DNA of 64,000 bases from Argentina anserina (lineage: Eukaryota; Streptophyta; Magnoliopsida; Rosales; Rosaceae). Below are positions 1 to 51,655 of this stretch, piece by piece (position 1 is the first letter of the stretch; each line of letters starts with the position of its first letter). The position numbers were made by a program, and so were the translations under genes. The notes beneath the pieces are model-generated. The model was not told the origin of the DNA, searched no databases, and was given only the letters and a program-made list of their open reading frames with translations. Where the stretch lies: contig NC_065874.1 of the NCBI RefSeq assembly GCF_933775445.1, forward strand, positions 29,892,501 through 29,956,500. Direction: 5' to 3'.

Positions 1-2621
1 ATCGTGAACTTGTTAATTTAGAAATGTGTTGGAAATATGTTAATAGCCCTCCCGTTGTGATATAGAATGCTATCGAATTTCCGATAGTTATTTAATATCA
101 CGCGGACATTAAGTTTGATGATTATTGAGTTTCTTGGGTTTTCAACTTGGTCTAATTCCTGGTCATACTAGGAATGTCTTGGTCAACACCAAGTCAACCT
201 TGGATTTCTCCTGGTCAAATCAGGAGAAGGACAATTCGACCATGATAATCGTCATATTTTCGTATTCGAATCGTTTAAATTACTAACCCTTTTATCAAAC
301 GAAATTCAGGACTTCATCGTTTTTGGAACACATGGATTGAAGTACGAGACGTGGACTTCGACGCTGCTATATCAGGTAAGGGGAGCCGCCCGTTAGGGTG
401 AGCCACTCTCTTCCAGGTTAGTCTTTTCCAATTTGTATAATGCTCTATTTGTTTCTATTTCTTGTGTTTTATGCCTATATCCGCATTTTAGTCTATGCCT
501 TAAGATTTACATAATTCAAATTTACTATTTTACCCAAGGACTAAAATATCGACGAGAACGGAAATATTGAAGGTCCAAAAATTAGAAATTTCGACTGCAA
601 TTTCGAGAAAATATCAATTTTAAAAAATAATTAAGTAAATTGATGGAAATTTAAATAAAAACATGGAAATTTTGAATGAAATTTTGAGAGATATTTATTT
701 TATCAATTATCTACTATATTTCATAAGAAATTATTATATAACTATTAGTCTATAGTGAGTTGTAGTCATTTAAGGTGAAACAATCATCGAGAATTATTAA
801 AAATTTACTTCAATTTTTTTAATGGCTAGGAACCCAAAGGGAGGCTATGTCATCACACCTTATATACATACGATACATTAAACATGAAATTACATGAGTG
901 ATTTAGAACCACATAGAAGATCTATGAGTTACAAAATTTTCACCGTCTTCATCATCTCCTTGAGTAGATACAACATATATTACACATATAATATATATTA
1001 TAAAGCGTCAAAACATAACACAAATTGACTTAATAGAGTTGACTAAGTGATCCATTTTCTAATGAGGTGAACATGGTTTGATTCCCCTCAAGGGTTTTAT
1101 TTGAATTTTATTTGAAACATAGAATGAAATATATTTAAAATGTCTTTATAGAACAATAACTTTTCTTGGTAGAGTTGGCTACACATCTTTTTTTGCAAAG
1201 AAATGACCAGGGTTCGATTCCCTTCAAAAACATATTTGAGTTTTAATTTCTAGTGGCGACACGTGGGCGATGAACATTATATTTTCCGTAGGTGTATAAA
1301 TTTATATATACTATAAAGATCATATATATAACAATGTGCATGCTTAGCTGGGTTAGCTAAGGCTTTTAGCCTTCTAGCTGGAGAGTAGGGTTCGAATCCC
1401 CCTACTTACAAGTTTGATTTTGGTGGAAATTTTGGTGTAGGGGAGGGGACGGTGCCACGTGGCATCCTCTTCGTATGGTCAACGGTCAAATTTCCCATAA
1501 TATCGTGATATATCGAAAATATCGCGACATTTCGAAAAAATTCTATAATTTCATTCGAAATCAAATTGGTAAGGAGAAGATATATCCTCATGTGAAAAAA
1601 AACGAAAATATCACCGATATTTCGACTATATTTTCGATTTTTCAGTCCTTGATTTTACCAAGACTAGACTTCATTCATATTTTATTTCTTGAGTAGACCT
1701 GAGAGTGAATGAGAACCTAGAAATATGGACACCCTCGGTGTCGATAACCGTAAACTTTCGGAGGGGCAATGTCATGTTATCATTCTACATTGCGCACTAT
1801 ATTTTTAGGGTATTGTCTTAAATGGACACTCTTGCTTACTTATTGCTATTATTAGCAATAAACATAGTTAGCCTCGACTTAAGGGGTGGTTATATTCCCT
1901 CCTCGTCGCTAGGTCCGGTCACCAAATTACTAAAAATTCTGCGGATTATTATTCTCAAAATATTCTATCTATTTTGGTGTTAGCATTTTTGCATATGAGT
2001 TTATGCCAAGAGTAAAACCTTCATAGTTTCTATCTTTTATTATTTTACATGAGCGGTCTAAATATGTTTTACATATATGAGCATTACCACCTTTCATAGT
2101 TTTCAAATCTGTTTCGGTTGAGTTCAGCCCTTTCCAGGTTAGCGAGGATTAATGCTCACCCTTACATTTTCAGGTACCTTAGTTCGAACTTAGAGGAGCC
2201 GATCTAGGAGTTAGACGAGGCAGCACATAGCCTTCCTTGTTCAACGTTCATGGTTCATTGATCGAGTTCACCTCCGAGGAGTCATTTGTTTGCTCGATGG
2301 TATAATTGTTTTCTTTGATCTCCGAAATGTTATAAGATATTTGTTGGGTTGCATTCTTGTTTTTGAGACTTAAGTTCTATTTTCTTATATCCTTAAAGTC
2401 TCATGCCACCTTCTGTAAATTTGAAATGGGTTATTTGTTTGTAAATTATCAACTCATTTCTATCTACGTTGTTCAAGCTATTTAATTCTTTCCTTTCAGC
2501 CTTCGGGGTTCGGGTTAGTAAGTGGTTAACACGTCTATTTGACATGTTGGTTATTTGCTAATTCGGATTCACGGCGGTTATTGCCATGTTTCGGGTCCTG
2601 AAACGGTCCCAGGATGTGACA
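1..2621. repeat. LTR-type repeat, truncated by window start
   Basis: Long non-coding AT-rich sequence that ends at 2621 in a terminus reading CCCAGGATGTGACA; the reverse complement opens TGTCACATCCTGGG, a common plant LTR start. This suggests a long LTR read on the minus strand whose other end lies outside the window. No second LTR, primer site or coding region was found, so it may be a solo or broken LTR. It contains three tRNA-like units (1026-1400) and a stretch rich in ATATCG-type words (about 1495-1640). Only the 2621 end is supported. Confidence 0.45.
1026..1400 (+). repeat. Three tandem tRNA-like units
   Basis: Three diverged units each carry a Pol III B-box-like word: GGTTTGATTCC at 1075-1085, GGTTCGATTCC at 1211-1221 and GGTTCGAATCC at 1389-1399. 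An A-box-like word (for example TGGTAGAGTTGGC near 1167) precedes each by about 40 bases. The sequence after each B box is also alike (a TTTGA-TTT motif), which points to duplication of one ancestral unit. None folds into a complete tRNA by eye, so these are tRNA-derived or SINE-like relics rather than tRNA genes. Confidence 0.4.
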
Positions 2622-2696
2622 TGTATGACTCTGAGTACTATTACTGTTCAAAGATGATTGTCTTTTGTTGATATTTCCTATATACTATTTCCCAAT

Positions 2697-2736
2697 GCAC
2701 TGTTCATCGGCTAATGAACAGTGCGGCTCCGAGCCG
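2697..2736. other. Two abutting hairpins
   Basis: A perfect 11-base stem (GCACTGTTCAT at 2697-2707, ATGAACAGTGC at 2714-2724) closes a 6-base loop. It is followed at once by a second stem, CGGCTC (2724-2729) and GAGCCG (2731-2736), around one base. The pair lies 76 bases after the LTR-like end at 2621 and upstream of the Helitron genes. Its role is unknown; it could mark a transposon end or be a transcript structure. Confidence 0.5.
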
Positions 2737-4014
2737 AGCCAATGATAAAAACATATATTTGCTGCCTTTCATCCTTATCTTCGTTTCCAGCACCTCTTCT
2801 TCTTTCTCTCCCACCAGCCGATCATCATACGTATCTTTCTCCCGTAAATTTTATGTACTTTCTGGATTTCTTCCTCAAGCATTGGCAGTCGTTCGTACCC
2901 TCGGAAGATCTACCACTTAACCTCTCATCCAGTCTTCATAGGTATCTGGGGCTTTATCTTTTCTTCCTTAAATTTGGTGGGTTTGATTAGTCTCGATGTC
3001 TCTAATTTATTTTTCCTGTGATTTTTTGTAAGAAAATTCCTCACAGTCAGCCGAGATCTGGGCGACTTCCGGCTTCTCAATTTATATCTTACCAAGGTTA
3101 GTTTCTCCATGAAATTCAATTTCTTCTTCTGGGTGCTTGGTTGCTGCGTGTTTGGTGCTGTTTTTCTCTATGTTTGGAGGTGGATTGTGTCAATCTACTC
3201 AATTTCTTATGCACTTTAATTTCCAGCTTCCCTTAAGTTTCCTTCTACTCAATTTTACAAGGAAGTCTTGATGGAGGAAATATGTAATCCTCACATACAA
3301 CTGATCTATCGACCAATCAATTTGATGTCCATATTTGATTTTGGTTTCCTAATCATTACCAATCAACTAATAGTTTCAATATGAGTATAACCAATCAATT
3401 TCAACCCATTCGTCCAAATAAAACAGTGGACAATAGAAAGCCACTATTAGATATAAAAAAAAGAAGCACATGCCTAAAATTACAACTGACATGTTGTAAG
3501 ACCTGCAACTACAATCAACCAATTCATTATAGTTAATTAGATTTCTCTATTAAATTGGGTTTATTCTTTGTTTTAATCCATGTGTTGTGTTATTCATCTT
3601 GGTGGTCATAAATAGAAGAAGCACAACCAATACAGAGATTCAAAAAAATTATTTTGTAAGGGAGGGTGAGTTGGGTTATCCGGCTTTGTTCATATAGTTG
3701 TGTTGGGAACTCATACTATTTGTTACTTCATACAGCTTTGTTTTGTTTACTTTTGGGTTCTTTTAGGGCTTTTAATAAAATTTTGAAAAGTTTTTTTTCT
3801 ATTGGGAAGCTTATATGATGTGCATGGTCCTTATGCTTTCAAATTTAAAGATATTCTTTTTTTTTATGAATTATTAATATATACAGCTGAGCAGCCACCT
3901 CTGTATATATGCATTAGCAACCTAATATATAGAACATGGTGTGATTATGTTAATTTTTCCATTGCACATATAGAACATGGTGTTATCTACTAAGAAAAAT
4001 GCATTATTTCAGTT
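2737..4014. other. Intergenic, probable 5' part of the Helitron
   Basis: No convincing gene. A pyrimidine-rich stretch (2765-2850) resembles a 5' UTR, and the sequence then becomes AT-rich up to the first Helitron exon. The Helitron's 5' TC terminus should lie here or just upstream. Candidate starts at about 2678 (TCCTATATACTATTT) and 3552 (TCTCTATTAAATTGG) are not preceded by the expected A, so none is called. Confidence 0.35.
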
Positions 4015-7000
4015 ATGCCTCCTAAGAATAGAACAAGCAGAAGGAATAGAGTTATTGGTGAGTTAAATAGTGCTGGTCATCAAGCTGTGTGCCATCAGCC
4101 AACAATTTTCCTTCAAACTGATGAAGGGGGTATAAATCATTTGGTTACTGCTGCAACAAATCGGAGTTCAACTGACACGTATGGAACAGGTAATTGTAGC
4201 ACAACTGCTTGATACAATAATTTATTTTCTATTTGTGACTATTAATATATATGTTGTGTGGTTTATTAAGTAAATATTTTGTGCCTTTTTAGCTATGGTT
4301 CCTAAGTATACCAGCAAAAGAAAAAGAATGGACAAGAAGTGTAATCTTGATCATCAAGGAGCATGCCATCAAACAACGGCAACCTCACATCAAGGAAGTA
4401 CGAGTCTGACAACAAATGATGCAGAAGGTTGGCCTTTTAATTTTCCCTGTGAAATTACACATTGGTAGTTGATTATGGTCTGCATAATGGTGTATACAGA
4501 ATGGTATACATAATGATATTTGATTATGGTATGCAGGGTTGAATCTATCATCATTTGGCCAAGCATTATATCAGAGGAGTCGACAAGGTTGATTACATCA
4601 CTATTATGTTTTTCCCCATTTGTATATAGATAATTCAATTTCTAAAATTTGATAGTCATGTAGGTGGTATTATAATTTATTCTGATGGCGGTGATGATTG
4701 TTTCCGATGTGGATACTGCAGTGCATTCTTTTGGTCAGGTGAGGCACTTAAACAATCTTATAGGAATGCACTTACTTACACCAATTGTTGTTTGCAAGGA
4801 GAGATTAAAATTCCAGTACCGAATCCCACACCGAGATATTTGGAGGTATTATTGGATCCAAAAAGTGGTCAAGAAAGTCGTTATTTTCGAGAGAATATTA
4901 GAGTTTACAATTCAATGTTAGCTTTCACTTCAATGGGTGCAAAGATAGATCATCATATAAATGTTGGATCAGGACCTTATGTTTTTAAAATATGTGGACA
5001 AGTACATCACTTGATGGGTTCTGTATTACCACCTGAGGGTGACAGTCCAAAATTTGCCCAATTGTATGTTTATGATACGAGAAATGAGATCTCCAATCGT
5101 ATAAATGCTGTTGACCCATCTCATGTGAATAAAAAAATAAAACCAGATATAGTGCAAGGATTAGTGGAAATGCTTGATGATGTAAATGAATTAGTGAGAG
5201 AATATCGAAATGTTAGAGCTCAATTTGAAGATGCTTCATTGGCGTCATATAATATGAGTCTAATCGGTCCACACCTGAATAGTTACACTTCGAAACAATA
5301 CGAACTACCAAGTGGGAACGAGATAGGCGGTTTAATTGTTGGTGACATTGGAGAATTCAATTCGAATAGAGATATTGTTATACACTCAAATGATGACCGT
5401 TTGCATCGGATCTCTAAAGTACATCCAAAATATGTCTCTACAATATCCGTTACTTTTTCCGTACGGTGAAGATGGATTCAAACTGTATTCTAGATTGCAA
5501 CCAATCGTAGAACGCCGCGGCAAAAAAAGGCTTAAACTGACAATGTTGAAATTCTTTAGTTACCAAATTCATGATAGAGATGATTATGCAAGTACTTTGT
5601 TAAAAGGTGGAAGATTGTTCCAGCAATATTTGGTCGATGCTTATGCAACTGCTGAAGAAGATGCTTTAGACTATTTAAGAAAAAACCCACCCAAATACAG
5701 AAGTGAAAAGCGCAACAAAATTTATGAGGCTATTTCTGGTGGAATTGATGAAGGTCGTGATGTAGGATGACGAATTATCCTTCCGAGCAGTCATACTGGT
5801 AGTCCTAGAGATATGGTTAATAATTATCAAGATGCAATGACAATTTGTAGACAATATGGTAATCCAGATTTATTCATAACTTTTACTTGCAATGTTAACT
5901 GGCCCGAAATAAAAAGATATTGCCAAAAAAAAGGTGGGTGTAGACCTGAAGATCGACCAGATATAATTTCGCGTGTTTTTAAATTGAAACTAGATGACAT
6001 GCTTTCTTACATTAAATCAGGCGAACCATTTGGTCATGTTGAAGCAGACGTTTGTACAGTCGAATTTCAAAAACGAGGACTGCCTCACGCTCATATGTTA
6101 TTTTGGCTTTAAAAGGCTTACAAATGTTATACACCGGCTGATATAGATTCCATTATTTCAGCAGAATTACCAGACTATAATGTTAATCCAGAACTTTACA
6201 AAATCGTTAGTCAGTTTATGATTCATGGACCATGTGGACAAATAGATTTAAAAGCTCCTTGCATGCGTGAGGGAGGATGTACCAAATCTTTTCCAAAACC
6301 ATACAATGCCTATACACAGTTCGACGCAATAAAGCCACTTGTATACAGACGACGTGATGATGTTACAAGATTTGTAGAAAAAAATGGAGTTCGCCTTAAC
6401 AATAATTATGTCGTTCCTTATAACCCTAATTTGCTACTACGATATAATGCTCATATTAATGTTGAATCATGTTCTCAATCTATGTTGATTAAATACTTAT
6501 TTAAATACATCAATAAAGGTCCAGACCGAGCACGAGTGTTAGTACATGAAGATATAAATGATGAAATTCAAACTTATTTAAACTGTCGCTATTTAACTCC
6601 TCATGAATCAGTGTGGAGATTATTTGAATTCTCTATTCATTCTAGACATCCTGCAGTAATACGTTTAGATGTTCATTTACCTTATGAGGAAAATGTGGTT
6701 TTCGATGAAACTAAATCTCTAAAATCGGTACTAGAAAATCCAAATATAGAAACTTCTATGCTAACAGGCTGGTTCGAGGCAAATAATACTTATGAAGAAG
6801 CAAGAAACTTAACATATGCTGAATTCCCCACAAAATTTGTTTGGGATAAAGGTAAAAAAATATGGACACCAAGGAAAAAATATAGAACCATTGGGAGAAT
6901 TGCTCCAGTACACCCTATGGCAGGTGAGTTATATTATATGAGAATGTTACTGAATATACAAAGAGGTTGTGAAAACTATGACTCAATTAAGAGGGTTAAT

Positions 7001-8935
7001 AAGATATCATACAGTTCTTATCAAGAAGCTTGCCAAGTATTAGGACTGTTAGATGACGATAAAGAATGGGTTGACGCACTAAATGAGGCTACTTTTATTG
7101 CAACATCTAATGAAATACGTCAGTTATTTGTTACAATCCTTCAATTTTGTCAAGTTGGAAATCCAAAGTCATTGTTTGAAGCATATTGGGCAAGTATGTG
7201 CGACGATATTTTGAAAAAAACTCGAATAGAACTCAATATGCCTAATCTGAATATACCTGAGTCAGAGTTGAAAAATAGTCTCATGTTTGAACTGGAAAAA
7301 TTACTAAGTGTATCGTCTAAATCATTAAAAGACTATCAATTGCCGATGCCAAACATGAATAGAATTGAGGAACTTGATAACAGATTATTAAGAGAAGAAC
7401 TTGATTACGATTGTAATGCTTTGAAATACGAACACTCAAACTTAGTCTCAAGATTAAATGTTTGCCAAAAAATTATATACAACGAAGTTATCAAAACAGT
7501 TAAAGAAAAGCAGACTGGAACTTTCTTTGTCCATGGTTGTGGCGGAACAGGGAAAACATATTTGTGGCATACAATAATAACTAAATTGAGATCGGAAGGA
7601 AAAATTGTTTTAGCGGTAGCTTCATCAGGTATTGCGTCATTACTACTTCCAAATGGTAAAACAGCACATTCGCGGTTCAAAATACCACTGGATGTATTGA
7701 AAGATTCAACATGCCCAATTAGTAAAGGGACTCATCTAGCAAAGTTACTCCAAAAAACAGATCTGATTATATGGGACGAGGCTCCGATGTGTAACAAATA
7801 TTGTTTTGAATCATTAGATGAAACTCTTCGCGACATTGTAACAGATTCTAACAATCAAAAATCAAAAACAGTATTTGGGGGAAAACCAATTTTGTTAGGT
7901 GGAGATTTCAGACAGCTCCTACCGGTTGTACCGGGAGGAACAAAAGAAAAAGTGGTTGAAATTTGCATAAATAAATCGTACTTATGGAAGTCATTTAAAA
8001 TATTTTACTTAACAGAAAATATGAGATTGTCCAAATTAGGTTTATCTGAAAAAGAAAAAAATGAAATTGGCGATTTTGCAAATTGGATATTACAAATAGG
8101 AGAAGGTCGATTGCAATCAGTTTATGACACATGTGACATTGATGCATCTTGGATTAATATTCCCATAGATTTATTAATTTTTTGTAACAAAGATCCGGTT
8201 AGAACTATTTTTTTAGCTACTTACGCAAATTTTGATATGAAATATAATAATATTCAGTACTTAAAAGAACGTGCTATTGTAACACCACGAAATGCCACAG
8301 TTCATGAGATAAATAATTATGCAATGAATTTATTGCCTGGTGATAAAACTACATATTTTAGTTCTGACTCGGTCTCGCTGAGTTCTGGAAATAGTGAAAA
8401 TATTGATCTCCTATATCCCCTAGAATTTTTAAATCAACTTGAATTTAATGGATTACCAAAACACGAGTTAACTTTAAAAGTTGATATGCCAATTATGCTA
8501 CTTAGAAATATAAACCAGACCTGCGGTTTATGTAATGGCACAAGATTGATTATAACAAAATTATACAACAGACTAATAGAAGCGAAAGTGATAACAGGTA
8601 ACAATGTTGGACAAAAGTTTTTTATCCCAAGAATTGTGTTAACTGAAAAGGAATCTAGATGGCCATTCACATTTAAAAGACGTCAGTTTCCTGTAAGACC
8701 CTGTTATGCAATGACAATTAATAAAAGTCAAGGTCAATCGTTGAACCAAGTAGGTATATATTTACCAGAACCTGTTTTTACTCATGGCCAACTATATGTT
8801 GCGTTATCGAGAGTCACATCTAGAGAAGGCTTGAAAATTTTGATAAACAATAGTGACAGCATACCGAATAATTATACTAGAAATATAGTCTACAAAGATG
8901 TGTTGCAAAAAATTAGAAATGAACACAATATATGA
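4015..8935 (+). pseudogene. Helitron Rep/PIF1 helicase, lightly damaged
   Basis: Replication initiator and 5'-3' helicase that nicks, unwinds and transfers Helitron DNA. Short N-terminal exons appear at 4015-4212 and about 4292-4428. A Cys-rich segment (CGYCSAFFW, then TNCCLQGEIKIP) begins the main exon near 4681. The Rep two-His motif GLPHAH is at about 6078-6095 and the two-Tyr motif KYLFKYINK at about 6491-6517. The last 905 codons (6218-8935) are open and hold Walker A GCGGTGKT (near residue 441), Walker B IIWDEAP (near 520), NKSQGQS and a C-terminal HGQLYVALSR. Breaks: a frameshift near 5432, TGA at 5768-5770 and TAA at 6110-6112; after the frameshift one frame runs to 8935. Full-length protein is unlikely unless an intron removes the breaks. 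Confidence 0.88.
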
Positions 8936-23059: not shown

Positions 23060-25754
23060 TGTAACGACCCTAAAATTTCGAGCTTAAAAACTCAAAATTT
23101 CAAAGTCGTTAAACACTAAACAATTTCAATGAAATCGAAATCATTTAAAATGCCAAAGCGGATCATCTCTGAGTTCAAAATACAACTCAATCAAACCGAT
23201 TATTACAACCCAAATTATAATTCAATATTATAACAAATGGAATTGCGTAATCCTCACAACAAACTCACAAGATAGTCACACAAAATCCTCACACCAGCTG
23301 GAGATAAATAACTTCAAGTCCACTGAGCGGTACGTCAATTCCCACTAATCCACACCTGCGGAGTTATCCACTACACCATCGAATTGGTGCACCGGGATTG
23401 TAAACACAAACCCGGTAAGCTTTACAGCTCGTATGAGTAAAATGAAAATATAACTCGCATAACAATATATTCGAAAATCCAGAAATCAAACAAATATAAA
23501 TGCACTCATGAGTGAATGGACGGCCCATCTGGTTGTCCCAAAGAAATATGAAATGAAACGCTCATGAGAAATTAAGTAACCCTTCTGGTTACCCAAATGC
23601 ATTTATAATACGGGTACCAAGAACGCTGGTACACATCTGTTACCCCTTTCGTAATACACCGCCGATATTGGGCAACCACCCGCTACCCAATATCCAAAAA
23701 TATGAGTACTCATGAGCAGATAACCACCCGTTACCTCACATGCAGGACTCTGGCAGACAGACTAGAGCTCTAACTGCATCGTAACTTTCGCCCGGCCAAA
23801 GGCTAGGTTCCGACTTGCCAAACACGTACAATTATCTCACATCATATTGTACCAAATCAAGTTCGAAGACAAATCAACATTTTAACAATCTCAATGTTAA
23901 AATCACGTACAATAATCTCACATCATATTGTACCAAAAATCAAGTCCGAAGACAAATCAACATTTTAACAATCTCCATGTTAAAATCACGTAAAATAATC
24001 TCACATCATATTGTACAAATCAAAATCACATGCTCGATATATAAATCTCGTCATCAAAATGACATAAATCACGATAAAATCATAACAGTATATTATATAA
24101 CAAACTATATATATGTACATATTTACCATTTATACAATATATATATATAATCCATTATATCATATACATGTCATATTTCACAAACACGTCCGAAGACAAA
24201 ATTCGTCCGAAGACAAAACTTATTCGAAAACAAAACTCGTCCGAAGACAAAACGTTTTAACAAACACCATGTTAAAACCACGTACAATAATCACACCTCA
24301 TATTGTACACATTAAATCACATGCTCAATATTTAATTCTCGTCATCGAAATGACCAATTCAAATGAATTCATAACAGTATATAATATAGCAAACTATATA
24401 TATATGTACTTATTACCATTTATACAATATATATGTAATCCACTATATCGTATACATGTCGTAATTCAATATTAAAAACTCTTGTAAAATCTTGAACCTC
24501 CGCAAGGGTATATTCGTAAATATGTGAGATTTTACTCACATTCTTTCCTCCGTGCAACTTCCACGACCCTGAAAGTAATTTCCTCACTCGTTTCGTCAGT
24601 CACCTAATAGCACGATAAATGCTTAGAAAATGATACTTAAAATATCAGGTGACGAGTTCAGCACAGCTAAATGTTGTTCTTAAAACATTGTTCACGGAAC
24701 ACTGTTCATGTTTACTAATCACTGTTTTTACTAAACAACTGTTCACAGTTACAGTTTTGCCAAAACACTGTTCACAGTATTGTTTTACCATACCACTGTT
24801 CACATTCACTGTTACAGAGTACTATTCACATACACTATTCATGCGACGTCACTGTTCACATGAACTGTTACAAATCACTAATCATAGTTACTATTTATGC
24901 GTTGGTACTATTCACAGTTACTATTCATGCGGCGTTACTGTTCACCGACTGCCACCAATCATCACCAAGTTTCACCACCACAACCTAAACAACATTTCTA
25001 ACAACTTTCTAGTTGACACCAAGGTCTAAATCCGAGCTTAAACAGTCCAAACAACGAAGAACATAAATTCGGCACTATTCACAAACCCTAGAAATTGAAA
25101 TTTTGATTCGGGTACTTACACTTCGATTTGGCTCGATTCCTTTTGTGGGAACGTTGCTGGGACTGAGACAAGCAAAACCCCCCAAGAATCTCGAGCTATG
25201 GTGGCCGGAGGAGGCGGCGCCGCCACAGCAGCAACTTCCGGTGGTTGCTACACCATGTGTGGTTGTCGCCGGTGTGCAAGGCGTAGCCTAAAAGATGGGG
25301 ATCGTCGAGTCCGTCAGTTTGATAGGTGGCACGACACGAGGCAACGTCGGATGGTGGAGAAATCGGCCAGAGAAGGTTTTTGGTCGGGTGAACAGTACCC
25401 GAGCTGATTTTTAATCTCCTCTCCTTCCTTTTATACTATTTCCAAAATCGGAAACGAACTTCCGACGTTAATAACTTTCGCGTCCGACGTCCGATTCGAA
25501 CGCGTGACGTGCCCACGAACTCGTATCGATGAGCTCTACGACTTTCGTGAAGGACGTTTTCGGAACCGAGCGACAAAATAAAAGTCGATCTATATATTGC
25601 GGTAACGTTACGTTTTCTAATTAAACGATCCGAGAACGTTTCCGTTTTCGTTTCGAAATGTCGCAAACCTCCAATTGTCGTCTTGAATTAATTTCACAAG
25701 TTTAACACTTTGAAAATACTCGACATTTAGTTTCTAAAAATTCGGGTTATTACA
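23060..25754 (+). mobile_element. Solo LTR, 2.7 kb (family A, copy 1)
   Basis: Begins TGTAACGACCC and ends GGGTTATTACA, with GGCAT on both sides (23055-23059 and 25755-25759), a perfect target duplication. It is homologous along most of its length to 30802-33353, for example the shared block around GCGGATCAT, the CCCGGTAAGCTTT block and the GTCCGAAGACA repeats. No gag-pol is present, so this is a solo LTR. It ends about 310 bases past the stop codon of the copper transporter gene, on that gene's 3' side. Confidence 0.88.
24640..24945 (+). repeat. ACTGTTCAC-type short repeats inside the solo LTR
   Basis: More than ten variants of CACTGTTCAC or ACTATTCAT stand at irregular short spacing. The equivalent part of the second copy (about 32040-32350) instead shows TACGTAAA-type repeats, so this LTR segment expands different short motifs in different copies. 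Confidence 0.65.
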
Positions 25755-27135: not shown

Positions 27136-29138
27136 TAGGGGTGGCACTTAAGACAGAAAAACCGAAAACCGAACCGAAAAAACCGGACCGAAACCGAAAA
27201 AAATTGAATCGAACCGAACACAAGAAAAACTGAACCGAACCGAATTAATCAGTTTTGTTTCAGTTTGGGCACATAAGAAACCGAACCGAACCGAAAAACC
27301 GAATTATTTATAAAATAATGTCGTTTTACGTTTATCTTACCGAATATTTGTTTTGATTAATGTGATTTTAGGTTTATATTATATATAATTATATGTTTTT
27401 TTTGTAGTGTTATATATGTATATATAATCATCTATGTTTATATGTATGTTTCAAATAAGTTTGCTAAAACAAACACACACATATATATACAAGCGGATGT
27501 GTAATTACTAAATCGCCTCAATATGAAGCAACTATATGAAGGAAACTTCTCAAGATCGATCGACACCAGTCGATATGATTGATATGTATATATAGTCACC
27601 TTGTAAAAATTTCATCCAATTCGGACATCGTTTAACCGTCGGAATTTCTGGTAAACCAAAAACAACATTAATATACCCTAAGGGAGAACCCATTACTAAG
27701 ATGCGAATGAGAAAAGTTGTTTACATATTTGAAGTCACATAATTTTTGTCATCGATCGTGCGTGGTCGAAATAAGGAAACTCATTTGGCAAACTCCCGGT
27801 CAATGGGATTTTATTATGTGAAAACACATGTTTTTTGGTTGACCGTTGGTACGGACGGTCAAACCATGTTCAAAACGGACGAAATTTTTACGGGTTCCCT
27901 AAATATATATACCGATCACATCTACTGGTGTCGATCGACCATATTTCAAACTGGAGTTGTCGATCGCTGAAGTGTCCACTAATGTACCATAACCTTTATA
28001 TTAGGGTTATAATAAAACTATCACATTATGAAGCGACTATATGAAGGAAACTTATCGGAATTGATCGACACCATCCGATGTGATCAGTATATATATTTAG
28101 TGATCATTTTAAAATTTCATCCAATTCGGACCTCGTTTGACCGTCGGAATTTCCGGTAAACCAAAAACAACACTAATATACCCTAAGGGAGGACCCATTA
28201 CCAAGATGCGAATGAGAAAAGTTGTTTACACATTTGAAGTCACATAATTTTTGTCATCGATCGTGCGTGGTCGAAACAAGGAAACTCATTTGGCAAAGTC
28301 TCGGTCAATGAGGGTTTTATTATGTGAAAACGCATGTTTTTTGGTTGACCGTTGGTACGGACGGTCAAACCATGTTCAAAACGGACGAAATTTTTACGGG
28401 TTCCCTAAATATATATACCGATCACATCTACTGGTGTCGATCGACCATATTTCAAACTGGAGTTGTCGATCGCCGAAGTGTCCACTAATGTACCATAACC
28501 TTTTATATTAGGGTTATAATAAAACTATCACATTATGAAGCGACTATATGAAGGAAACTTATCGGAATTGATCGACACCATCCGATGTGATCAGTATATA
28601 TATTTAGTGACCATTTTAATATTTCATCCAATTCGGACTTCGTTTGACCGTCGGAATTTCCGGTAAACCAAAAACCACACTAATATACCCTAAGGGAGGA
28701 CCCATCACCAAGATGCAAATGAGAAAAGTTGTTTACATATTTGAAATCACATAATTTTTGTCATCGATCGTGCGTGGTCGAAACAAGGAAACTCATTTGG
28801 CAAAGCCCCGGTCAATGAGGTTTTATTATGTGAAAACGCCTATTTTTTGGTTAATCGTTAGTATGGACAATCAAACTATGTTCAAAATGGATGAAATTTT
28901 TACATGGTCCCTAAATATATATGTTGATCACATCTATTGGTGTCGATCGACAATATTTTGAAACTAGAATTTTTTTTAAAAAAAAAAACCATAAAAACCG
29001 AACCGAACCGAACCGTTCGGTTCGGTTTTCAGTTTGCCTTATTGAAAAACCGAACAGTGAACCGAACCGAAGTTTAATTTCAGTTTGATTTATGGTTTGA
29101 CCCCAAAACCGAACCGTTTAAACCGAATGCCACCCCTA
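27136..29138. mobile_element. Non-autonomous hAT-like element with a tandem array
   Basis: The ends are TAGGGGTGGCAC on the left and TAGGGGTGGCAT on the reversed right. Flanks AGATAGGG (27128-27135) and AGACAGGA (29139-29146) agree at six of eight positions, a decayed hAT-size duplication. Both subterminal zones are packed with AACCGAACCGAA words. The middle is a tandem array of a ~506 bp unit. No transposase is present; the short open frames repeat with the array and are not taken as genes. Confidence 0.8.
27523..28965. repeat. ~506-bp tandem repeat, 2.8 copies
   Basis: Units start ATGAAGC at 27523, 28028 and 28535 (periods 505 and 507); the third stops early near 28965. Copies 2 and 3 are closer to each other than to copy 1. 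Each unit has an inverted pair: GATCGACACCAGT-type near its start and ACTGGTGTCGATC-type near its end, about 330 bases apart, so each can fold into a stem. This repeated unit accounts for nearly all of the element's interior. Confidence 0.88.
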
Positions 29139-30801: not shown

Positions 30802-33353
30802 TGTCACGATCCCACAATTTCGAGTATGGAACTCAAATTTCGAAGTCATGAAAAACTCTAAAACAATCTCAATAAATCGAAATCATTTAATGTCACAGCG
30901 GATCATTACTGAGTTCAAAGTACAACTCAGTCAAATCGATTATTACAAACCAAATTTATAATTCAACATTATATCAAATGGAAATGTAAAAATCCTCTCA
31001 AATCCTCACCACAAGATAGAATAAAACAACTTCAAGTCTTCAGAGTTGTCCGTTGATTTCCACTAATCCACATCTGCGGAATTATCCCCTACATCATCGA
31101 ATAGGTGCACCTGGATTGTAAATACAAACCCGGTAAGCTTTGCAGCTCGTATGAGTAAAACAACAATATAACTCGCATAAAAATATATACGAAAATCCAC
31201 AATCATCAATCATAAATACATTCATGAGTCATTAGAAGACCCATATGGTTGTCTAATAATATGAAAATATATGTGCTCATGAAATTGGGCAACCCCTCTG
31301 TTTACCCAAATGCATTTATAATACGGGTACTCATGAGCGCTGGTACACCTCTGTTACCCCTCATGATAGTACGCCGCCGACATTGGCCAACCACCTGCTA
31401 CCCAATATCTAAAATATGGGTACTCATAAGTCGATAACCCATATGTTACCTCTCATGCAGTACACCAGCAGACAGACTAGAGCTCTAACTATATCGTAAC
31501 TGTCGCCCGGCCAAGGATAGGTTCCGACATGCCAACACGTCTGAAGACTGGTCCGAAGACAGAAAAACACGTCCGAAGACAGAAAACGTTTTAATCAATT
31601 CAATGTTAAAACCACGCACAATAATCATCACATGATATAGTACAAATCAAATCGACATGCTCAAATAAATAAACATCAACGCTAAAATGAACTCATTCGC
31701 AAACGGAAATTATGACAATATATAATATAGCAAACTCTATATATGTACCTATTTTACCAATCATACACATATACAATCCACTATATCATATACATATCAC
31801 AGTTCATTTCATTTTAATAAAGCGTAATCATGAATCTCCACAAGGGTAGATTTGTCAATGTGACAGTTTTACTCACCTTATAATCCTGATGGTAATTTCC
31901 ACGATTCCGAACTCAAATCCTTTACTTGTTGTGTCGATCACCTAGAATAGATAAGAAGTGAATTTAAAATCGTTACGTAAAACCTTAAATGCTGAAACAG
32001 TAATAATATTTAACTGTTAAGCAATTTCTGGTTTTTATGAAATTACCGTTCACGTAGTTACTATTCACGTATCAATGTACAAATACATATTAATTACGTA
32101 TTCATGTATGAGTACATACTATTTACATATTTCTGTACAAGTACATAGTATTTACGTATTCTTGTACGTCCATGTACTATTCAATCGTATATAATGACTC
32201 AGTAAATAATAATTACTGATTTACCCTTCAGAATTTATTTTTACAATTACTATACGTAAAAATTATTTTACATTCACCGTACGTAAAATAAATTTATATT
32301 TACTGTACGTAAATTACTTTTTACATTTACCGTACGTAAAAATAAATTTCACAAAATTACTGTTTTAAATCACCGTTCACGCGCCGCCGCATGTGGGGGC
32401 GCGTGGAGTACACGCGCCACCTCCGGCGACGGTGCATGGCGCTCACGCGCCACTCACTGTGGCAGTGCGTGGGGCCAACGCGCCGACTCCGAAACCGGCG
32501 CGTAGTACGTCAGCGCCGCCCCCTAACCTCTCCATTTTCCCTCATCTTCTCCTCCATGGCCTCCTACCCTCCTCACGCACCCACACGCGCCGCCTAAGGC
32601 GGCAGTATTCTCCCCTCCTCCTCCTCCTCCTCTGATCTCCTCCACATCCTCCTCAAATCCATCCTATACAACCAAAATCACACAAACAATAATCACAACA
32701 ACCAATTTAATCGAATCCTCACCTATTTCCTGCCTTGGAAGCACCAGAGCTCATTGGAGAGCTTGGACCGACTGTGCTCGGTTCGTGTGAGGAGAGGCGT
32801 GGCTTCACGGTGGCGAGGGAGGTCGTGCCTTGTTCGGAGGAGAGTGGAGTCGAGCTGGTGAGGACCTAGGAGCCGGCGGTGAGGGCCTCGTCGCCCGGAG
32901 GAGGGAGATCGCGGTGCGATTTGCAGAGGGAGGGGGAGCTCGGGGAGAGAGAGAGAAGAGGGAGGCGGGGTGAGGTGAGAGAGAAAGGGTTTCCGAAAAT
33001 GGAAACCCTACTCCTAAAAAATTTCCTTTTATACCCACTTCTAAAATCAGAAACTAACTTCCGTCGTTAATAACCTTCACGTACGACGTCTGATTAGAAT
33101 GCGTGACATGTCCGCAAAATCGTAACGACGAGCTCTACAACTTTTGTGAAGGAAGTTTTCACAAACGAGCGACGGAGTAAAAATCGATTCTTGCGTCGCG
33201 GAAACGTAACGTTTTCCTAATTAAAATTTCCGATAACGGTTCCATTTTCGATTTACAAAATCGTGAGGCGAAACCTTGCGGTTTATTAATCATACAAGTT
33301 TATAAAAATTCTACCAATTCAATAAATCGATCCCGAAAAATCGGGTCATTACA
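30802..33353 (+). mobile_element. Solo LTR, 2.55 kb (family A, copy 2)
   Basis: Begins TGTCACGATCCC and ends GGGTCATTACA, with CGTTC at 30797-30801 and CATTC at 33354-33358, a five-base duplication with one change. It is homologous to 23060-25754. It landed 65 bases inside the left end of the hAT element. A CGCGCC-rich segment (32380-32600) and TACGTAAA repeats (32225-32345) are peculiar to this copy. No coding region. Confidence 0.86.
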
Positions 33354-40052: not shown

Positions 40053-41402
40053 TTCTTATGTATATGCATTGTAGAATTTTCCGTTTTGTATAAGGTCAAT
40101 GGTGGAGCCATATTGGAGCCTACTGGCTCCTGTGCCCCAGTAATGCTTCATATAATTTATAGTTAGCAAATGTTTATGTTTGTCAATTTGTTTTGGTGGT
40201 TTGGAGTTTTCCTAGCTTATTTTAGGTGCTCAGTTCGACACCTAGCTTTAGCGTTTTTTGGTTTTGCACAATTAACAATACGTGGCATATATAACTGTAT
40301 ATTATACTTCCCTTTAGCTTTAGAACCTTTAAAAATGATTTGATCTAGACTAATTTTTTTAAGGACGGATCTCAACTTTATATATCAAGTCTAGCGGTGA
40401 TAGAGTACTAATTGTGAACCGAATGAAGTGTTTAAGACCCCATATATAGTTACTAGTATATTTGCACTAGTTTTTCTATATATATAGAACTAAATAATTA
40501 AATTATATAAAAAATATTGTATCTTCAGTTTTTTTTATTTTTTATTTCTAAATAATGTGATTCATATGAAATCCTACTTGTACTCGATATGGCCGCAATA
40601 CATATATATTACATAAAAAAATTTATAACCGTAGATCAGTGAACCAAAATTCATGGCAACGCCACTGTATAAGGTTATCATATATTCTACATATTTGTTA
40701 TGTAACTTCATTTTGTTTGAAGGGGTGTACGTGTTATATACAACTCCTTACCTCCTTGATCATTTGGAAAAATTAAATATCTGAAGGTGTAGCTAGCTAG
40801 TTACTAGCTGATCAACTCAAACAAGGATCTCCAAATTTTCATATATATTAAGGTCTCAATAGAAAAACTAACGAATTAATCCATTGCGATTGCCGCTCAA
40901 TGTCATGACATCGATATCACGAAAACATGTCCATAAACCTGTCAACATGTACGTATTTGTCAGCAAAACAATGAAATAAATTCATGATAATCTCTCAAAA
41001 TAGCATCCTTTCAACAATAAAAAAGATGATGAGTTCCAATCCGATCTGATTCATGATCAGGGATGGACCGACCCGTAATAATTAAGTACGTAGACGTTCC
41101 ACCGAACAAGCCACAAGAGGCCAATATATCTTCCAACTAGAATTCAAATACATGAAACTACAAGTAAGACTGTTAGAGTGAGTTCCAGATCTTCAAAACC
41201 AGTGGCTAAGAATGAGTTTCAAATCTTCAAAAACAGTTCTATCCGGCTTGTTTTGTATCTAGCTTATTCATCTCTGTTTGCTTACCTAGTATTACTACAA
41301 ATGGAAATGCTCTGCTTCTAAAATCTCAAGGGAATCCCAAACACTAGTGCATTAAGCCATCTTTCATCTTTGTGTGATATCTGAGATTGAAGAAAAACAG
41401 AG
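40053..41402. other. Intergenic, upstream of first glycosyltransferase
   Basis: AT-rich, no gene seen. The last 40 bases (to 41402) are a plausible short leader, CTGAGATTGAAGAAAAACAG, before the ATG. Confidence 0.45.
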
Positions 41403-42862
41403 ATGAATAAGCTGGTTCTAGTTCCATGTCCATACCAAGGCCACATAAACCCAATGCTTCAGTTAGGTACGTTTCTTCACTCCAAGGGGTTTTCCATTAC
41501 CATAGTTCACACCCAATTCAACTCTCCCAGCTCTTCCAACCACCCTGAGTTCACCTTCATCCCTATTCCTGATGGTCTAACGGCTCCTATAGTCTCATCT
41601 GGGAATATTATAGCTATTCTGCAGACTATCAATGCCTCTTGCGAAGCAAGTTTCGAACATTGTTTGACCACTCAGATAATGAAACAAGATCCGGAGAAGA
41701 AAATCGCCTGCATCATTTACGACGAATTCATGTACTTTCCTGCAGCAGCTGCTACTCATCTAAACATCCGGACCTTCATCCTCCGTACTACCGCTACGGC
41801 CAATTTTCTTGCTCGTAGCACTGTCATAGAACTTCACTCTAAAGGCCTCATTCCCTTCCCAGGTATGTGTCATACTTGAGTTCCAAGTCATATATGGAAG
41901 TGATATTGCTAGCTAGATCATTTATGCAAACTAAGATGCTTAAGCTTTGTGGTAGAGTTCATGTACACTTCACTTTCTATATCACAGAGTCTGTGTCATC
42001 GGACCCGGTGCCCCAACTTCATCCCATCAGATTCAAGGATCTGCCAATCTCACCCTGGGATACAATAGAGAAGTTTCTGGAACTAATAGTTAGCTCACAT
42101 GATGTTAGGAGATCTTCGGCCATCCTCTGTAATACCACAGTCTGCCTTGACCAATCATCACTAGCACGGGTCCAACAACATTGCCGAGTACCGATCTTCT
42201 GTATAGGCCCTCTTCACAAAATCACAACAGCTGCCTCTAGTAGTTTACTTGAAGAGGACGCGAGTTGCATCGAGTGGCTTGACAAGCAAGCACCCAAGTC
42301 AGTTATCTATGTCAGTTTGGGGAGTGTCGCATGCATTGGTGAGAAAGAACTTGCAGAAATGGCTTGGGGATTAGCTAACAGCAAGCACCCTTTCTTGTGG
42401 GTGATCAGACCTGGCTCCATTACGGGCTCAGATTGGATAGAGCTACTGCCTCGAGAGTTTAGAGAGGCTATTGGAGAAAGAAGTTTCATAGTGAAATGGG
42501 CACCCCAAAGGGAAGTTTTGGCTCATGGTGCTGTTGGCGCGTTTTGGACCCATTGTGGCTGGAATTCAACACTTGAAAGCATATCCGAAGGGGTTCCGAT
42601 GATTTGCAAACCGTGTTTTAGTGATCAGAAGGTGCATACAAGGCATGTTAGCCAAGTGTGGAAACTAGGTTTAGAATTGGGGGACGAGTTTGAGAGGGGA
42701 GAGATCGAGAGAGCTGTCAGGAAAATTCTGGAAAATAGTGATGGGGAGGAAATCAGGGTGAGGGCCAAAGATATGAAGGAGAAAATAGACGTTTCTATGA
42801 GCAAGGGTGGATCTACCTACAATTTCTTGAATGAACTTGTTGAACTCATTATGGGATTCTAA
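41403..42862 (+). CDS. UDP-glycosyltransferase, UGT76-like (gene 1)
   Basis: Family 1 glycosyltransferase that moves a sugar, usually glucose from UDP-glucose, to small molecules in the cytosol. Exons 41403-41862 and 41988-42862, with one GT-AG intron (41863-41987) splitting a codon; 444 residues, normal length. The N-terminal LVPCPYQGHINPM holds the catalytic His14, and ACIIYDEF the activating Asp. The 44-residue PSPG box spans about 324-367 (starts WAPQREVL, contains HCGWNSTLES, ends FSDQ). The last Gln favours glucose as donor. The acceptor cannot be told. Sequence style and the single intron fit the UGT76 group. A partner gene lies at 50011. Confidence 0.9.
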
Positions 42863-44651
<1,789 letters not shown>

Positions 44652-44876
44652 CTATGTTGCAACTTGCAACACAAACATTACTCTCTTCCTCTGTTGCATC
44701 ACCTATTCATCAGAGGTAAATGGAAAAACGACGACATCGTGCTGCTTTCTGTGCCTAATCAATGGCACACAACCAAAATAACCCACTCTTATAAAAGAAG
44801 AAAACTCTTAGGTCATCTCTAATAAGAGGGCTATACTGGGGGATTCGTTTATGGTGCAGCGCTGCATACCATACTT

Positions 44877-46012
44877 GCAGGACTTATGGCACAAAAATTG
44901 TCTCATTATCCTAGTATTGACAACGATGAGTTATACTTTCTCGTTATGGACATAATTGCTTTCCATACTTAATCAATAGTAGTGTCCATGAAAACTGATT
45001 TGCAGCATATGATAGTGGTCATATAATAGATTGCGACGCTCGAGAGAACGTAGTATAATCGGTTGCAAGAACTCATACCCATATATGTTCATATGAAAGC
45101 TAATTTTTGATTCTCGATTCCGTCTAAGTATAAATGATGAAGAGATTCAATGAGCTATACATTCATACATGTTAGTGTTGTTGGGACGCTATTTATTTCA
45201 TTATGACGTGATTAACTATACACCTATGCATCGTCATTGGACTTGCATTGGTCCTTTGACATGGGTTTAGTTCTACACTTAGTGAACCAACACAAATTCT
45301 ATCCACACCAACGCCGCCAACAGCTCCAACAATATCAACGTACGCCTTGGTGTAGCAGTCGACACTGGTAGCATAGAGGATGCATACGGTTCTGTCTCAG
45401 ACCAAAATCAGTCATTCATTGGTCCATCCCTCATTCCTTTGTGAAAGACACATTGAATGTGACAAATCAGAATCTGTCCAGTTTCATAGGTCAATTTCAA
45501 TAAAACCTATAGGACACCTCGCTCACTAAGTGTAGAACTAAACCCATGGCAGAAAAGCAATGCAAGTCCAATGACGATGCATAGGCGCATAGGTAATCAC
45601 GTCATAATGAAAGCAATAGTGTCCCAACAACACTTACATATATGAATCTATAGCTCATTGAATCTCTTCATCATCTATACTTAGACGGAATAGAGAATCA
45701 AGAATTAGCTTTCATATGAACACATTGGTATGAGTTCTTCCAACCGATTGTACTACGTTCTCTCGAACGTCGCAATCTGATTACATAAGCTCTCCGTGGT
45801 CTGGAGGCATTTAAAGTCCCTCGGGCACTCTCATATCTGTGTCAAGATCCCTTTACAGATATTTTATGACCACTATCATATGCTGCAAATCAGTTTTCAT
45901 GGACACTAATACTGATCAAGTAGCGGAAAGCAATTATGTCCATAACGAGAGAATGTAACTCATCGTAGTCAATAATAGGATAATGAGACAATCTTTGCGC
46001 CATAAGTCCTGC
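44877..46012. repeat. Large inverted repeat of copia pol sequence
   Basis: The left arm (44877-45285, 409 bases) is the reverse complement of the right arm (45523-46012, 490 bases) with roughly 90% agreement by eye. The left arm lacks about 85 bases present in the right near 45785-45870. The spacer is 237 bases. The outer ends match as GCAGGACTTATGG and CCATAAGTCCTGC. The right arm continues into a minus-strand copia relic and resembles the 16.5 kb region of the first copia element. A transcript would form a long hairpin. Confidence 0.88.
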
Positions 46013-48482
46013 ATATATCGCATGACTTCATCTTTCTCATTACACTTACGAACAACGACCAACATAACAAGTCTAGTTCAGCCTGTATTGATTTCTTCCA
46101 CTTTGGTCAAGTTGCTCATCGTTGATGCTTTACAACGGAATAAGAGCATAAGCAAATACATCATCAATCATGAGAGATCAATCCATTAAACATAGGCGCG
46201 CGCTGTATACGATTAATTCATGAGATTTATATTCTTCTCTAACATCAACAAAAGGAGTCTGTAGCGTCCCACAGAAACTTAGTTGATACACATGTTTAGA
46301 GAATATCTCTTGATGATGGGCAAAATACTTGTGCCTACACACTTCTCTTCTTTCTGGTTTTGATTTCAGAGAATAATGGTCTCCCCCTCATCTAGGTAGG
46401 AGCCAAGACCGAAGCTATGACCCTTACTAGTTCTCTTTGCGTTTGTCGCCCTTGTTTTGTGGTGCAATACCACGGGCGCCGACAACACCACAGCGTACAA
46501 TGGTGCCATCGCCGGCTTCCTTCCCACTGTCAGGGATGGTGCCAACAGTGCTAGGACCAGGTCAGATGAAATTCTCCCATATTCTGAGAGTTCCAACCTA
46601 ACTGGCACATCACAGCATTTATGTGCGATCTCGTCACTTTCGCAATATCGGTAAAGTCATTGAGCATCGAATCTTTGACTTTCTGGAGGTAGATAATGCA
46701 TTGCACATTTGCTTACTTTGAGTAGTGTGGGATCTTAATGAGACATAGTGCCACACCACATCAATTCCTGGCGTTAAAACCGGAATGGGAGCATTCCATA
46801 TCTCCCCCTAATGACGGGAAGTATGTCTCATCAAAGTGACCGTCTGCTAATATCGCAAGATAGAGATCAACAATTGTAGATTGGAAATAGCGGACAAGTG
46901 TTGGTGATTCATAAATCATAACCAACCAGAATACTTAATCGTTTCAAGTAGACCCATTGAGATAACTACAATAGAGGCACATAAACAACTTTAACCAAAT
47001 AGGCCTTTAATGAAAAGAACGTTGGGATTGTATCCAGTAACCATCTGGTACGCACTAAACGCTTGGCAAGTTGTGGGTCTAAAACGAATAAGGGTCACTG
47101 CATGCAACATCATTACATATCCCCATGCAAAAATCGGCAGTTTAGTACCTATAACCAAGTCCGAGCTCTGCTAGATCGTACAGTGAATGAACATGAGAAA
47201 TAATATGTTCAACGACGATCCCAGTTGACATGCAAAACGAAATCATCAAAGTCGTGGGGGTGAACTCTCCAACGGTATCCATTCAAGTAGATTTGAGAGG
47301 ATAGGAAGGGTGGTGAGCCCTTAGGATGATGATCATAACTAAAAACTTTAGCAAATGCAGCGTTTCTTGTGGAAAGCAAAGCGACGTGTGACCAACGCGT
47401 CGATGCTCTTAACCTATACCATAAAAATACCGAAAAATGTCCACATTCGGTTGGATAGGGTCCACTAATGTCACCTTAAATACTTCGTAAGAATGGAATG
47501 TTCTCGGTTGGAGCCTTAGCAAATAAGGACTTCCTTGAAATCTAGCAAAAGAACAAGCTTTGCAAAATGAGCGATGGGCATCCGAGATTACCATGGAGGC
47601 ATTAGAAAACATGGGAGGCATCACAAGCTCCTGTGAATGAGGGGATGCCGCCACCGACGGCCTTAATGCCATAGAGCCGCCTAAATAGGCAGGCTCGGCC
47701 TCACCGTGTGGAGTATGGGTGAGGTGGTCCTCCAATCGATTCGTGAACATGCAAAATAGATGATAATGTGAATTTCAAAGAACTCGAATCATCATATCTT
47801 GTTCAAAATGACCAAAAAATGATCATGTCAAAACCGAGAAGACAGCAAAACTGAATCCATGATTCAAAGAATCTTGAGTTACATAAAGCTACTGCTGTAG
47901 GCAAGCAAAGCTATGTCCACAGGCTAACAAATCTACTGTCTAAGCTTGAAAAAGCTATTGTCAATGAAATCTGACAGATTTATTCCTCTTCATTCTTAAC
48001 ACAAATATCAAGATGAAAATCCATCATTGGCATGTATGGCCTTTAAAACTTAGCAAGACACGAAGATATAGAACACAATATCCGCACGAGATCCGTAAAA
48101 CAACTACCTGCGCCGTAGGACAGTGTGGGTGGTTACGCAATTAACAAGACACTCGATTTGACGGCGGGACATTCTCAAAATGAAGATTAAGAGAGTCAAC
48201 GACGCGGTGAACTTCTCTAGACAATACGCCGTAGGATATTGTAAGAGGGGACATTGAAACAAATGTGCAATCCAATCGAGTGTATCACATGGCAATAGAA
48301 CTACATTCTTCAACGTAAGAGTTGGAAAAACATGGTATTGGAGCAGTTGAATACCAAAAAATTTGGGTGGTAAAAACCATCTAATTGGTGCGAGTGGTCA
48401 CCAAAAACAATAAAATCGTTTGAGCAATGCACCAGTGGTACAATTGTAATATTGTAGATTTCGGTAATACTGGAATCCAAGC
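46000..48482 (-). mobile_element. Second Ty1/copia relic, no LTRs found
   Basis: Minus-strand pol of the same family as 13184-22854. 46366-46608 matches the linker frame, and 47409-47750 carries the zinc-finger-like SFCKACSFAR with integrase-start text. Protein-level order agrees with the first element, but no frame is open for long. The 5' side is cut by a hAT MITE at 48491 and the 3' side passes into the inverted repeat. No LTR or target duplication was seen. Confidence 0.65.
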
Positions 48483-48490
48483 AATGCACC

Positions 48491-49008
48491 AAATGGTCTA
48501 AATAGCGGTTATCGGTATCGTATCGGTTTTGTAAAATAAAGATATATCGAGATATATCGGATTATATCGGATTTCTCGTTTTTGCTAATTTTTAATTAAA
48601 TTTAATATATTTTTAAACATATACATCAAAATATACTTAATAAACTTGAGAAATTAAAACTTATAGAAGTAAATGTACTAAATAATCTTCATAAAAAATA
48701 TTTGTTGTTTTGACAATTAAAATACATAAATAGTATTAATTAATAAAAATAGAGGTGATCATTCATCATAAACTCTCTCGTCATCAAATGATATCGACAA
48801 AACTTCTATTTTCTTTAAATTATTTTTTCAAAACAACGTGGTTTTAAAACAAAATTTTAAAAAGCACTGATATATCGGGTCAAACTCGGTTTGACCCGAT
48901 ATTATCATTTAACTTGATTTTTCGGGTTGACCGATATAATAAACAGATAAGCAACTTATCGTATCGTTTTCTTAATATCGGGGATATATCGAGATTTTTA
49001 GAACATTG
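48491..49008. mobile_element. hAT MITE, 518 bp, ATATCG-rich
   Basis: The left end AAATGGTCTAAAT and the reversed right end CAATGTTCTAAAA are related. Both flanks are AATGCACC (48483-48490 and 49009-49016), a perfect eight-base duplication. The interior is full of ATATCGG and its complement and can fold on itself. No transposase. Inserted next to the copia relic. Confidence 0.85.
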
Positions 49009-50010: not shown

Positions 50011-51655
50011 ATGGAATATCAACAAGCGAGACGCTGCAGAGTGGTGTTGGTCCCTCTGCCCTTTCAAGGCCACATAACCCCAATGCTTCAGTTGGGGGCT
50101 ATCCTTCATTCCAAAGGCTTCCACATCACAATTGCCCACACCCAGTTCAACTTTCCCAACCCGCTGAATTACCCTCATTTCGACTTCTTAGCATTGCCTG
50201 ATGGCATAGGGGCGCAAACTATTTCAGCGGATAACTTTATAGCAACGATAACAGCTTTCAACACCAAATGCAAGGACCATCTCCAGGATTCGCTGGCTAG
50301 GATAATGGAAAAAGATGATCAACACAATAAGACTGCTTGCATTATCTATGATGAATATATGTATTTTGCAGAAGAGGTCGCCAAACATTTAAGGATATCT
50401 AGTATCATATTGTCTACCAGCAGTGCAGCAAAGATGCTAAGTTACATTGCGGTTCCTATGCTCCAAAAGAATGGTTACATTCCCATTCAAGGTGTGTAAA
50501 ATTAAACATGTTTGAACTTTGAACTTTCTGAATGCTGTATTGACGTACGTAGAATTCTCTATGACAATCCCGTTCTCTATGCTTCTCTACTTCTCATGCA
50601 TATATTTAACATGAACTTTCTGAATGCTATATTGACGTACACAGAATTCTCTTTATGAGAGTTCCGTTCTATGATTATCTACTCTTCATGCATAAATTTC
50701 ACATAATTCGTAAGAACTCTGATGCTTTACCTATATGAGTGCAGATTTTCAGATGCCTTAACATGAACCCCAACTCTAATGCTTTGCCTGTATTAATGCA
50801 GACTCTAAGATGCTGGAACTAGTACCAGGACTCGAACCTCTCAGATTTAAAGACCTAACCATCACATATTTCAGAAAATTGGATGACTTGCTACAACTAA
50901 TGGCAAAAGCCCTTGATCCAAGGTCATCCTCATCCATTATCTGGAACACCATGGATTGCCTCGAGCATCTGACGTTGGCAAAGATCAAGCAAGAATACCA
51001 ACTTCCGTTGTTCCCTATTGGCCCTCTGCATAAAACTGTTCCAGCCATATCCAGCAGCTTATTAGAAGAGGACCATGGTTGCATGTCATGGCTTGACAAA
51101 CAACCACACAACTCTGTCATCTATATAAGCCTTGGAAGCGTAGCTTCCATGGACAATAAAGACATAGTTGAAATGGCATGGGGGCTTGCAAACAGTGAGC
51201 AACGTTTCTTGTGGGTTATTCGAACAGGATCAACAGCACTCCCAGAAGGTTTCCAAGAAACTGTTAAAGACAGAGGTTGCGTAGTAAGATGGGCACCCCA
51301 ACAGGAAGTCTTGGTACGCACTGCAGTTGGAGGCTTTTGGAGTCACTGTGGTTGGAATTCAACCATTGAGAGTATCTCTGAAGGAGTTCCGTTGATATGT
51401 CAACCATATTTTGGAGACCAACGAGTGAATGCAAGGTACTTGACCCAAGTTTGGGGAGTGGGGTTAGAGTGGGAGAATGACATGAACAGAAAAGATATAG
51501 AGGAAGCTATACGAAAACTTATGGTGAGTAAAGAAGGAGAGCTGATAAGGCAAAGAGCAAAAGAACTGAAGGAGAAAATTGAATCCAGTATGAATCAAGG
51601 TGGTTCTTCCTACAATTCCTTGAATGAATTGGTGAAGCTTATTTGGTCATTCTAA
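50011..51655 (+). CDS. UDP-glycosyltransferase, UGT76-like (gene 2)
   Basis: Second family 1 glycosyltransferase, related to gene 1 and in the same orientation. Exons 50011-50491 and 50802-51655, with one GT-AG intron of 310 bases at the same place and phase as gene 1. The product is again 444 residues. The first ATG is at 50011 (MEYQQARRC); codons further upstream lack an ATG. Catalytic His21 lies in LPFQGHITPM, and the Asp in ACIIYDEY. The PSPG box at 324-367 starts WAPQQEVL and ends FGDQ, favouring UDP-glucose. No stop or shift was found. The pair probably arose by tandem duplication, later spread about 8 kb apart by copia and MITE insertions. Substrate unknown. Confidence 0.92.
50520..50801 (+). 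repeat. Tandem duplications inside the intron, including the acceptor
   Basis: Two copies of a ~93-base block (about 50520-50612 and 50613-50705) share TGAACTTTCTGAATGCT and TTGACGTAC. Next, two copies of an acceptor-like block (about 50716-50755 and 50772-50815) share AACTCTGATGCTTT-type text and each has a TGCAG site. The downstream TGCAG at 50797-50801 gives the open frame. Confidence 0.75.

Follow-up and report, generated by a model that had tools for sequence, protein, structure and literature searches.

A potential hairpin in the Argentina anserina genome is probably an incidental by-product of transposon decay

Within a stretch of 64,000 nucleotides of the Argentina anserina genome (the window, part of contig C3 of 35,141,592 bases), two fragments of a Copia-related family, here called F1 and F2, form an inverted repeat that lies between two UDP-glycosyltransferase (UDPGT) genes on the + strand. 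The family to which the arms of the inverted repeat belong is dispersed, F1 and F2 are each truncated, and their junction was found once in the assembly searched (236.8 Mb, 146 contigs; Table 1). We consider it very probable, from comparison with other copies of the family, that the hairpin is an incidental by-product of transposon decay in which two insertions were joined by rearrangement, and this comparison supports that F1 and F2 are pieces of two separate copies and not a duplication. Specifically, a Copia-related LTR element that is present in many copies and is apparently coding-dead would have supplied two distinct copies, inserted near each other in opposite orientations, and later deletions or end-joining, presumably by this route and in this order, would have cut both copies to fragments without LTRs. 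The fragments would then have been joined at 45523/45524, where they share 2 bp of microhomology, presumably by end-joining.

Table 1 Features of the inverted pair and its surroundings (positions in the window)
Feature	Position	Strand	Basis or remark
Dispersed repeat of ~1.2 kb, unrelated, left of the pair	43265-44458		Genome search
First ~41 bp of a ~150-bp repeat, MITE-like inverted ends (by eye)	44834-44874	+	Cut off at the start of F1
F1, truncated fragment of the Copia-related family, 82-nt internal deletion	44875-45522	+	12/12 fetched copies
Left arm of the inverted repeat	44875-45285	+	BLAST, pairwise alignment
Spacer (loop), ordinary element sequence, part of F1	45286-45522	+	Follows the arm in other copies
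F1/F2 junction, TC fits both parents (2-bp microhomology)	45523-45524		Comparison with parents
Right arm of the inverted repeat	45523-46024	-	BLAST, pairwise alignment
F2, second truncated fragment of the same Copia-related family	45523-48429	-	Fetched copies
Dispersed repeat of ~500 bp, unrelated, right of the pair	48487-48992		Genome search
UDPGT exon, one side of the pair	50780-51655	+	

The original prediction, made from the letters of the sequence, had placed two inverted arms here with 237 bp between them. This arrangement was confirmed by two BLAST matches of the region against the window, one between 45021-45285 and 45523-45786 (90.2%, E 1e-99) and one between 44865-45028 and 45860-46024 (89.7%, E 7e-58), and E values of this size exclude chance similarity. 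The start proposed for the left arm, 44877, was correct to within 2 bases; the ten bases with which the left BLAST match opens, 44865-44874, are part of another repeat, which is ~150 bp long and MITE-like, and whose remainder beyond the first ~41 bp had no match in the window. In the best pairwise alignment, the arms were identical at 382 of 416 paired positions, the mismatches comprised 18 transitions and 16 transversions, and a single gap of 82 nt fell in the left arm. The longest perfect run between the arms was 44, and five runs were at least 21 long.

Several other features of the window were recorded. The UDPGT-like gene upstream of the pair (41391-42862, +) consists of two overlapping frames, 41391-41879 and 41843-42862, of which only the latter matched PF00201, and this two-frame structure reflects either an intron or a frameshift. 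The dispersed repeat to the left of the pair was near full length at 89-92% in 13 of the 39 other places scored, and the one to the right was found at 88-91% in the 39 other places scored, of 1439 first-look candidates. Farther away, a 940-codon open frame at 6113-8935 (+) matched the PIF1 helicase family (PF05970, E 9e-89) and is probably a Helitron helicase. Direct repeats ~506 bp apart, at 87-93% and with internal inverted copies, occupy 27519-28971, with similar sequence in L055, and direct repeats at 73-78%, ~7.7 kb apart, lie at 23060-24606 and 30802-31944.

The parent family was delineated from copies elsewhere in the assembly. The right arm was matched at 96-97% in 39 places besides the window, and the arm together with the spacer, in left-arm orientation, in 39 places at 89-92% (among the 40 of 822 first-look candidates that were scored). 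Because in the matching copies the spacer directly continues the arm in the orientation of F1, the window joins two pieces, F1 and F2. A 24-mer from the arm end occurred 253 times in forward and 256 times in reverse orientation at up to 2 mismatches, giving 509 occurrences in the assembly with the window's two included, and its reversed control gave 0 occurrences. By hand arithmetic, the element is ~6.6 kb long (from one copy, L047/L031), F1 corresponds approximately to element positions 4970-5710, and F2 approximately to 2530-5470. F1 was matched by every one of the 12 fetched copies, at 90-92%, and F2 matched fetched copies at 91-95%. An LTR of ~190 bp was matched on the 3' side in 12/12 longer copies and in all five fetched 5' pieces, with one of the latter matches spanning merely 67 bp. 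In copy L022, as judged by eye, the LTR has the ends TG...CA and a CGGAG repeat flanks it outside; the family thus has LTRs and, to judge from this one copy, a target-site duplication. The LTR had no match anywhere in the window: F2 is without it at both ends, and on the right, at 48429, F2 breaks off within the element.

The arms had also been described as Copia pol. The homology itself stood at the DNA level, in that F2 is colinear, in four pieces at 67-73%, with a copia element at 16.4-18.4 kb of the window, two fragments of which match PF07727 (RVT_2). A direct protein-level assignment did not follow, as a Pfam scan at E 1 returned nothing in nine scanned of the 14 listed stop-to-stop fragments of F2. 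The same threshold gave nothing in one piece of L031 or in six open stretches of L022, L030, and L031. Across 12 loci, most of which lack the element's 5' end, no open stretch on the element strand was longer than the 279 codons of one in L022, which had no Pfam match, and two stops in the RT-like frame (assigned by eye, with the copia at 13-23 kb as reference) were each common to 20 of 26 sampled copies. Among the copies examined, this high-copy family therefore looks non-autonomous and coding-dead.

To distinguish one copy from two, the arms were compared with 26 copies, namely the 12 best matches and a further 14 drawn from across the exact arm-end matches listed first on contigs C1 and C2. 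At three linked sites, F1 reads CCT and F2 reads GTA, and the copies divide into 11 with CCT, 12 with GTA, and 3 that are other or gapped. At a fourth informative column, a 1-nt gap, F1 agrees with F2, with nine of the 12 GTA copies and with none of the 11 CCT copies; F1 and F2 consequently differ at three of the four columns that separate the subfamilies. The arm identity between F1 and F2 was 0.914, compared to means of 0.949 for all 26 copies and 0.927 for the 14 motif-picked copies, and 27 of the 91 pairs among the latter were less alike than F1 and F2. Moreover, 19 of the 26 copies were nearer to F1 than F2 is, and 23 were nearer to F2 than F1 is. By mean identity, F2 was slightly nearer to the CCT group (0.957) than to the GTA group (0.943). 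In the tree, F1 fell inside a 12-row clade with support of 98/92 and F2 outside it; this tree is weak overall, with 16 of 24 inner branches open and the bootstrap unsettled. A tree holding F1 and F2 together was weakly rejected (p-AU 0.035), the pair having been tested after the haplotypes were seen.

These comparisons bear on the alternative that the pair arose by a fold-back within one copy, in which template switching by reverse transcriptase or repair of a hairpin break copied a stretch back on itself. The geometry fits such an event, with F1 ending 237 bp beyond the start of F2, as do the microhomology of 2 bp at the join and the single subfamily column that F1 and F2 have in common; yet F1 and F2 differ at the other three columns, their arms resemble each other no more closely than random copies do, and the rejection of a tree uniting them as sisters, though weak, points the same way, and we therefore regard a fold-back as unlikely. 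These objections would not touch a switch from one co-packaged RNA to another of a different subfamily, and it is possible that two templates were joined in one reverse transcription or that one arm later underwent gene conversion. Because the fourth subfamily column pairs F1 with F2, our confidence that two insertions were joined incidentally by rearrangement is slightly lowered.

Joining of two separate insertions requires that copies lie near each other in opposite orientations. If 509 copies were placed at random in 237 Mb, the expected number of opposite pairs would be 0.13 at distances of up to 237 bp and 0.27 at distances of up to 500 bp, so that one such pair is unremarkable. A recurrent hairpin-bearing element was considered and rejected: a search of the assembly for the 40-bp junction sequence, which allowed up to 3 mismatches and would miss more diverged relatives, gave a single occurrence, and none of the 12 fetched longer copies contained an inverted self-match of at least 100 bp. 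A difference in age between the fragments would support two events, but the results on private substitutions disagree. Using 10 best-match copies, with L022 and L023 left out for their deletions, private substitutions numbered 35 of 597 positions in F1 and 58 of 2511 in F2 (Fisher p 2.4e-5), and within the arms there were 21 in F1 and 10 in F2 using 12 best-match copies. Using 26 copies, the arms had 12 private sites in F1 and 8 in F2, and the F1 spacer had 6 in 237. Because the excess in F1 shrinks to 12 versus 8 with 26 copies, we claim no age order.

The original prediction had gone on to suggest that RNA from the locus could silence a copia family still present at 13-23 kb of the window. 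The premise of a hairpin was upheld computationally: RNA of 44840-46050 was predicted to fold into one long stem with an MFE of -676 kcal/mol, a raw value with no shuffled baseline at that length. The proposed target was not. The copia at 13-23 kb belongs to another family, and we ruled it out because none of the 1,766 arm 21-mers (both strands) matched within 3 mismatches in 12-24 kb. Seven matched there within 4 mismatches and 90 within 5, compared to 1 and 37 for one shuffled control, and this small excess fits distant homology between the arms and that copia. Three of the 12 fetched copies were compared with the right arm in this way, and 180-230 of its 482 21-mers had exact matches in them; in the true family, siRNAs, if made, would therefore have targets. 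No Rfam family reached its gathering threshold within the window, which says little about siRNA hairpins.

We therefore weighed a trigger resembling Mu killer (Muk), in which read-through from the UDPGT gene at 41391-42862 (+) or from the flanking repeats would give a hairpin that Dicer cuts into siRNAs against the Copia-related family. The single dominant predicted fold, the five long perfect runs between the arms, the three copies with exact right-arm 21-mers, and the upstream UDPGT frame on the same strand would all suit such a trigger. Against it stand the absence of the family's LTR from the window, a family apparently coding-dead in the copies seen, and the failure of the target that had been named, and we consider this scenario distinctly improbable. 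A Muk-like trigger arising from the predicted hairpin is thus possible in principle but unsupported. An assembly error that joined two repeat copies in opposite orientation would agree with the single occurrence of the junction, with its place inside a high-copy repeat, and with the repeats to either side, but is very unlikely given that the window lies within one 35 Mb contig, has no N, and carries a 2-bp microhomology at the join. Also very unlikely, in our judgment, is the scenario in which the junction, transcribed in some tissue, gives primary 21-22 nt siRNAs against ~500 apparently coding-dead Copia-related elements, so that a chance meeting with both subfamilies in the stem would have founded a trans-acting silencer.

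Endogenous plant inverted-repeat siRNA loci, e.g. Arabidopsis IR71, are known by their small RNAs. The present locus, known here from its sequence, is like them in being an inverted repeat from which siRNAs could be produced. We found no title or abstract opening on this locus in the literature. Muk has an inverted duplication of mudrA of ~1300 bp and two TIRA ends, and a dominant silencing effect was shown for it (PMC3440606). The likeness to Muk, a truncated transposon in an inverted duplication able to give hairpin RNA, extends to a long inverted repeat of transposon sequence and, through the 509 arm-end matches though not through the copia at 13-23 kb, to a matching target family in the genome. 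It apparently does not extend to an inverted duplication of one element, as judged by the three differing columns and the p-AU value; the arms here are ~0.4-0.5 kb, apparently come from two copies, and have no LTR. The hairpin model for Muk is itself contested in that account, where silencing plants express short antisense transcripts unable to form large hairpins and minor longer transcripts are left possible (PMC3440606). The closest likeness is to truncated LTR-retrotransposon debris, with which the locus shares LTR-less fragments, a join at microhomology, and other repeats on its flanks; we found no difference in the features tested and would class the locus there.

Taken together, the locus is most likely without a dedicated role, and it would at most add some small RNAs that are the same as those that the other copies of the family would give. 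It is important to note that where transposon sequence forms an inverted repeat in a plant genome, this is not necessarily a duplication or a silencing locus. In a family with hundreds of copies, neighbors in opposite orientations can occur by chance, and comparing the arms with the family helps to separate these cases. Were the pair transcribed, it would offer a test, set up by nature, of whether silencing starts from inverted neighbors that came together by chance.
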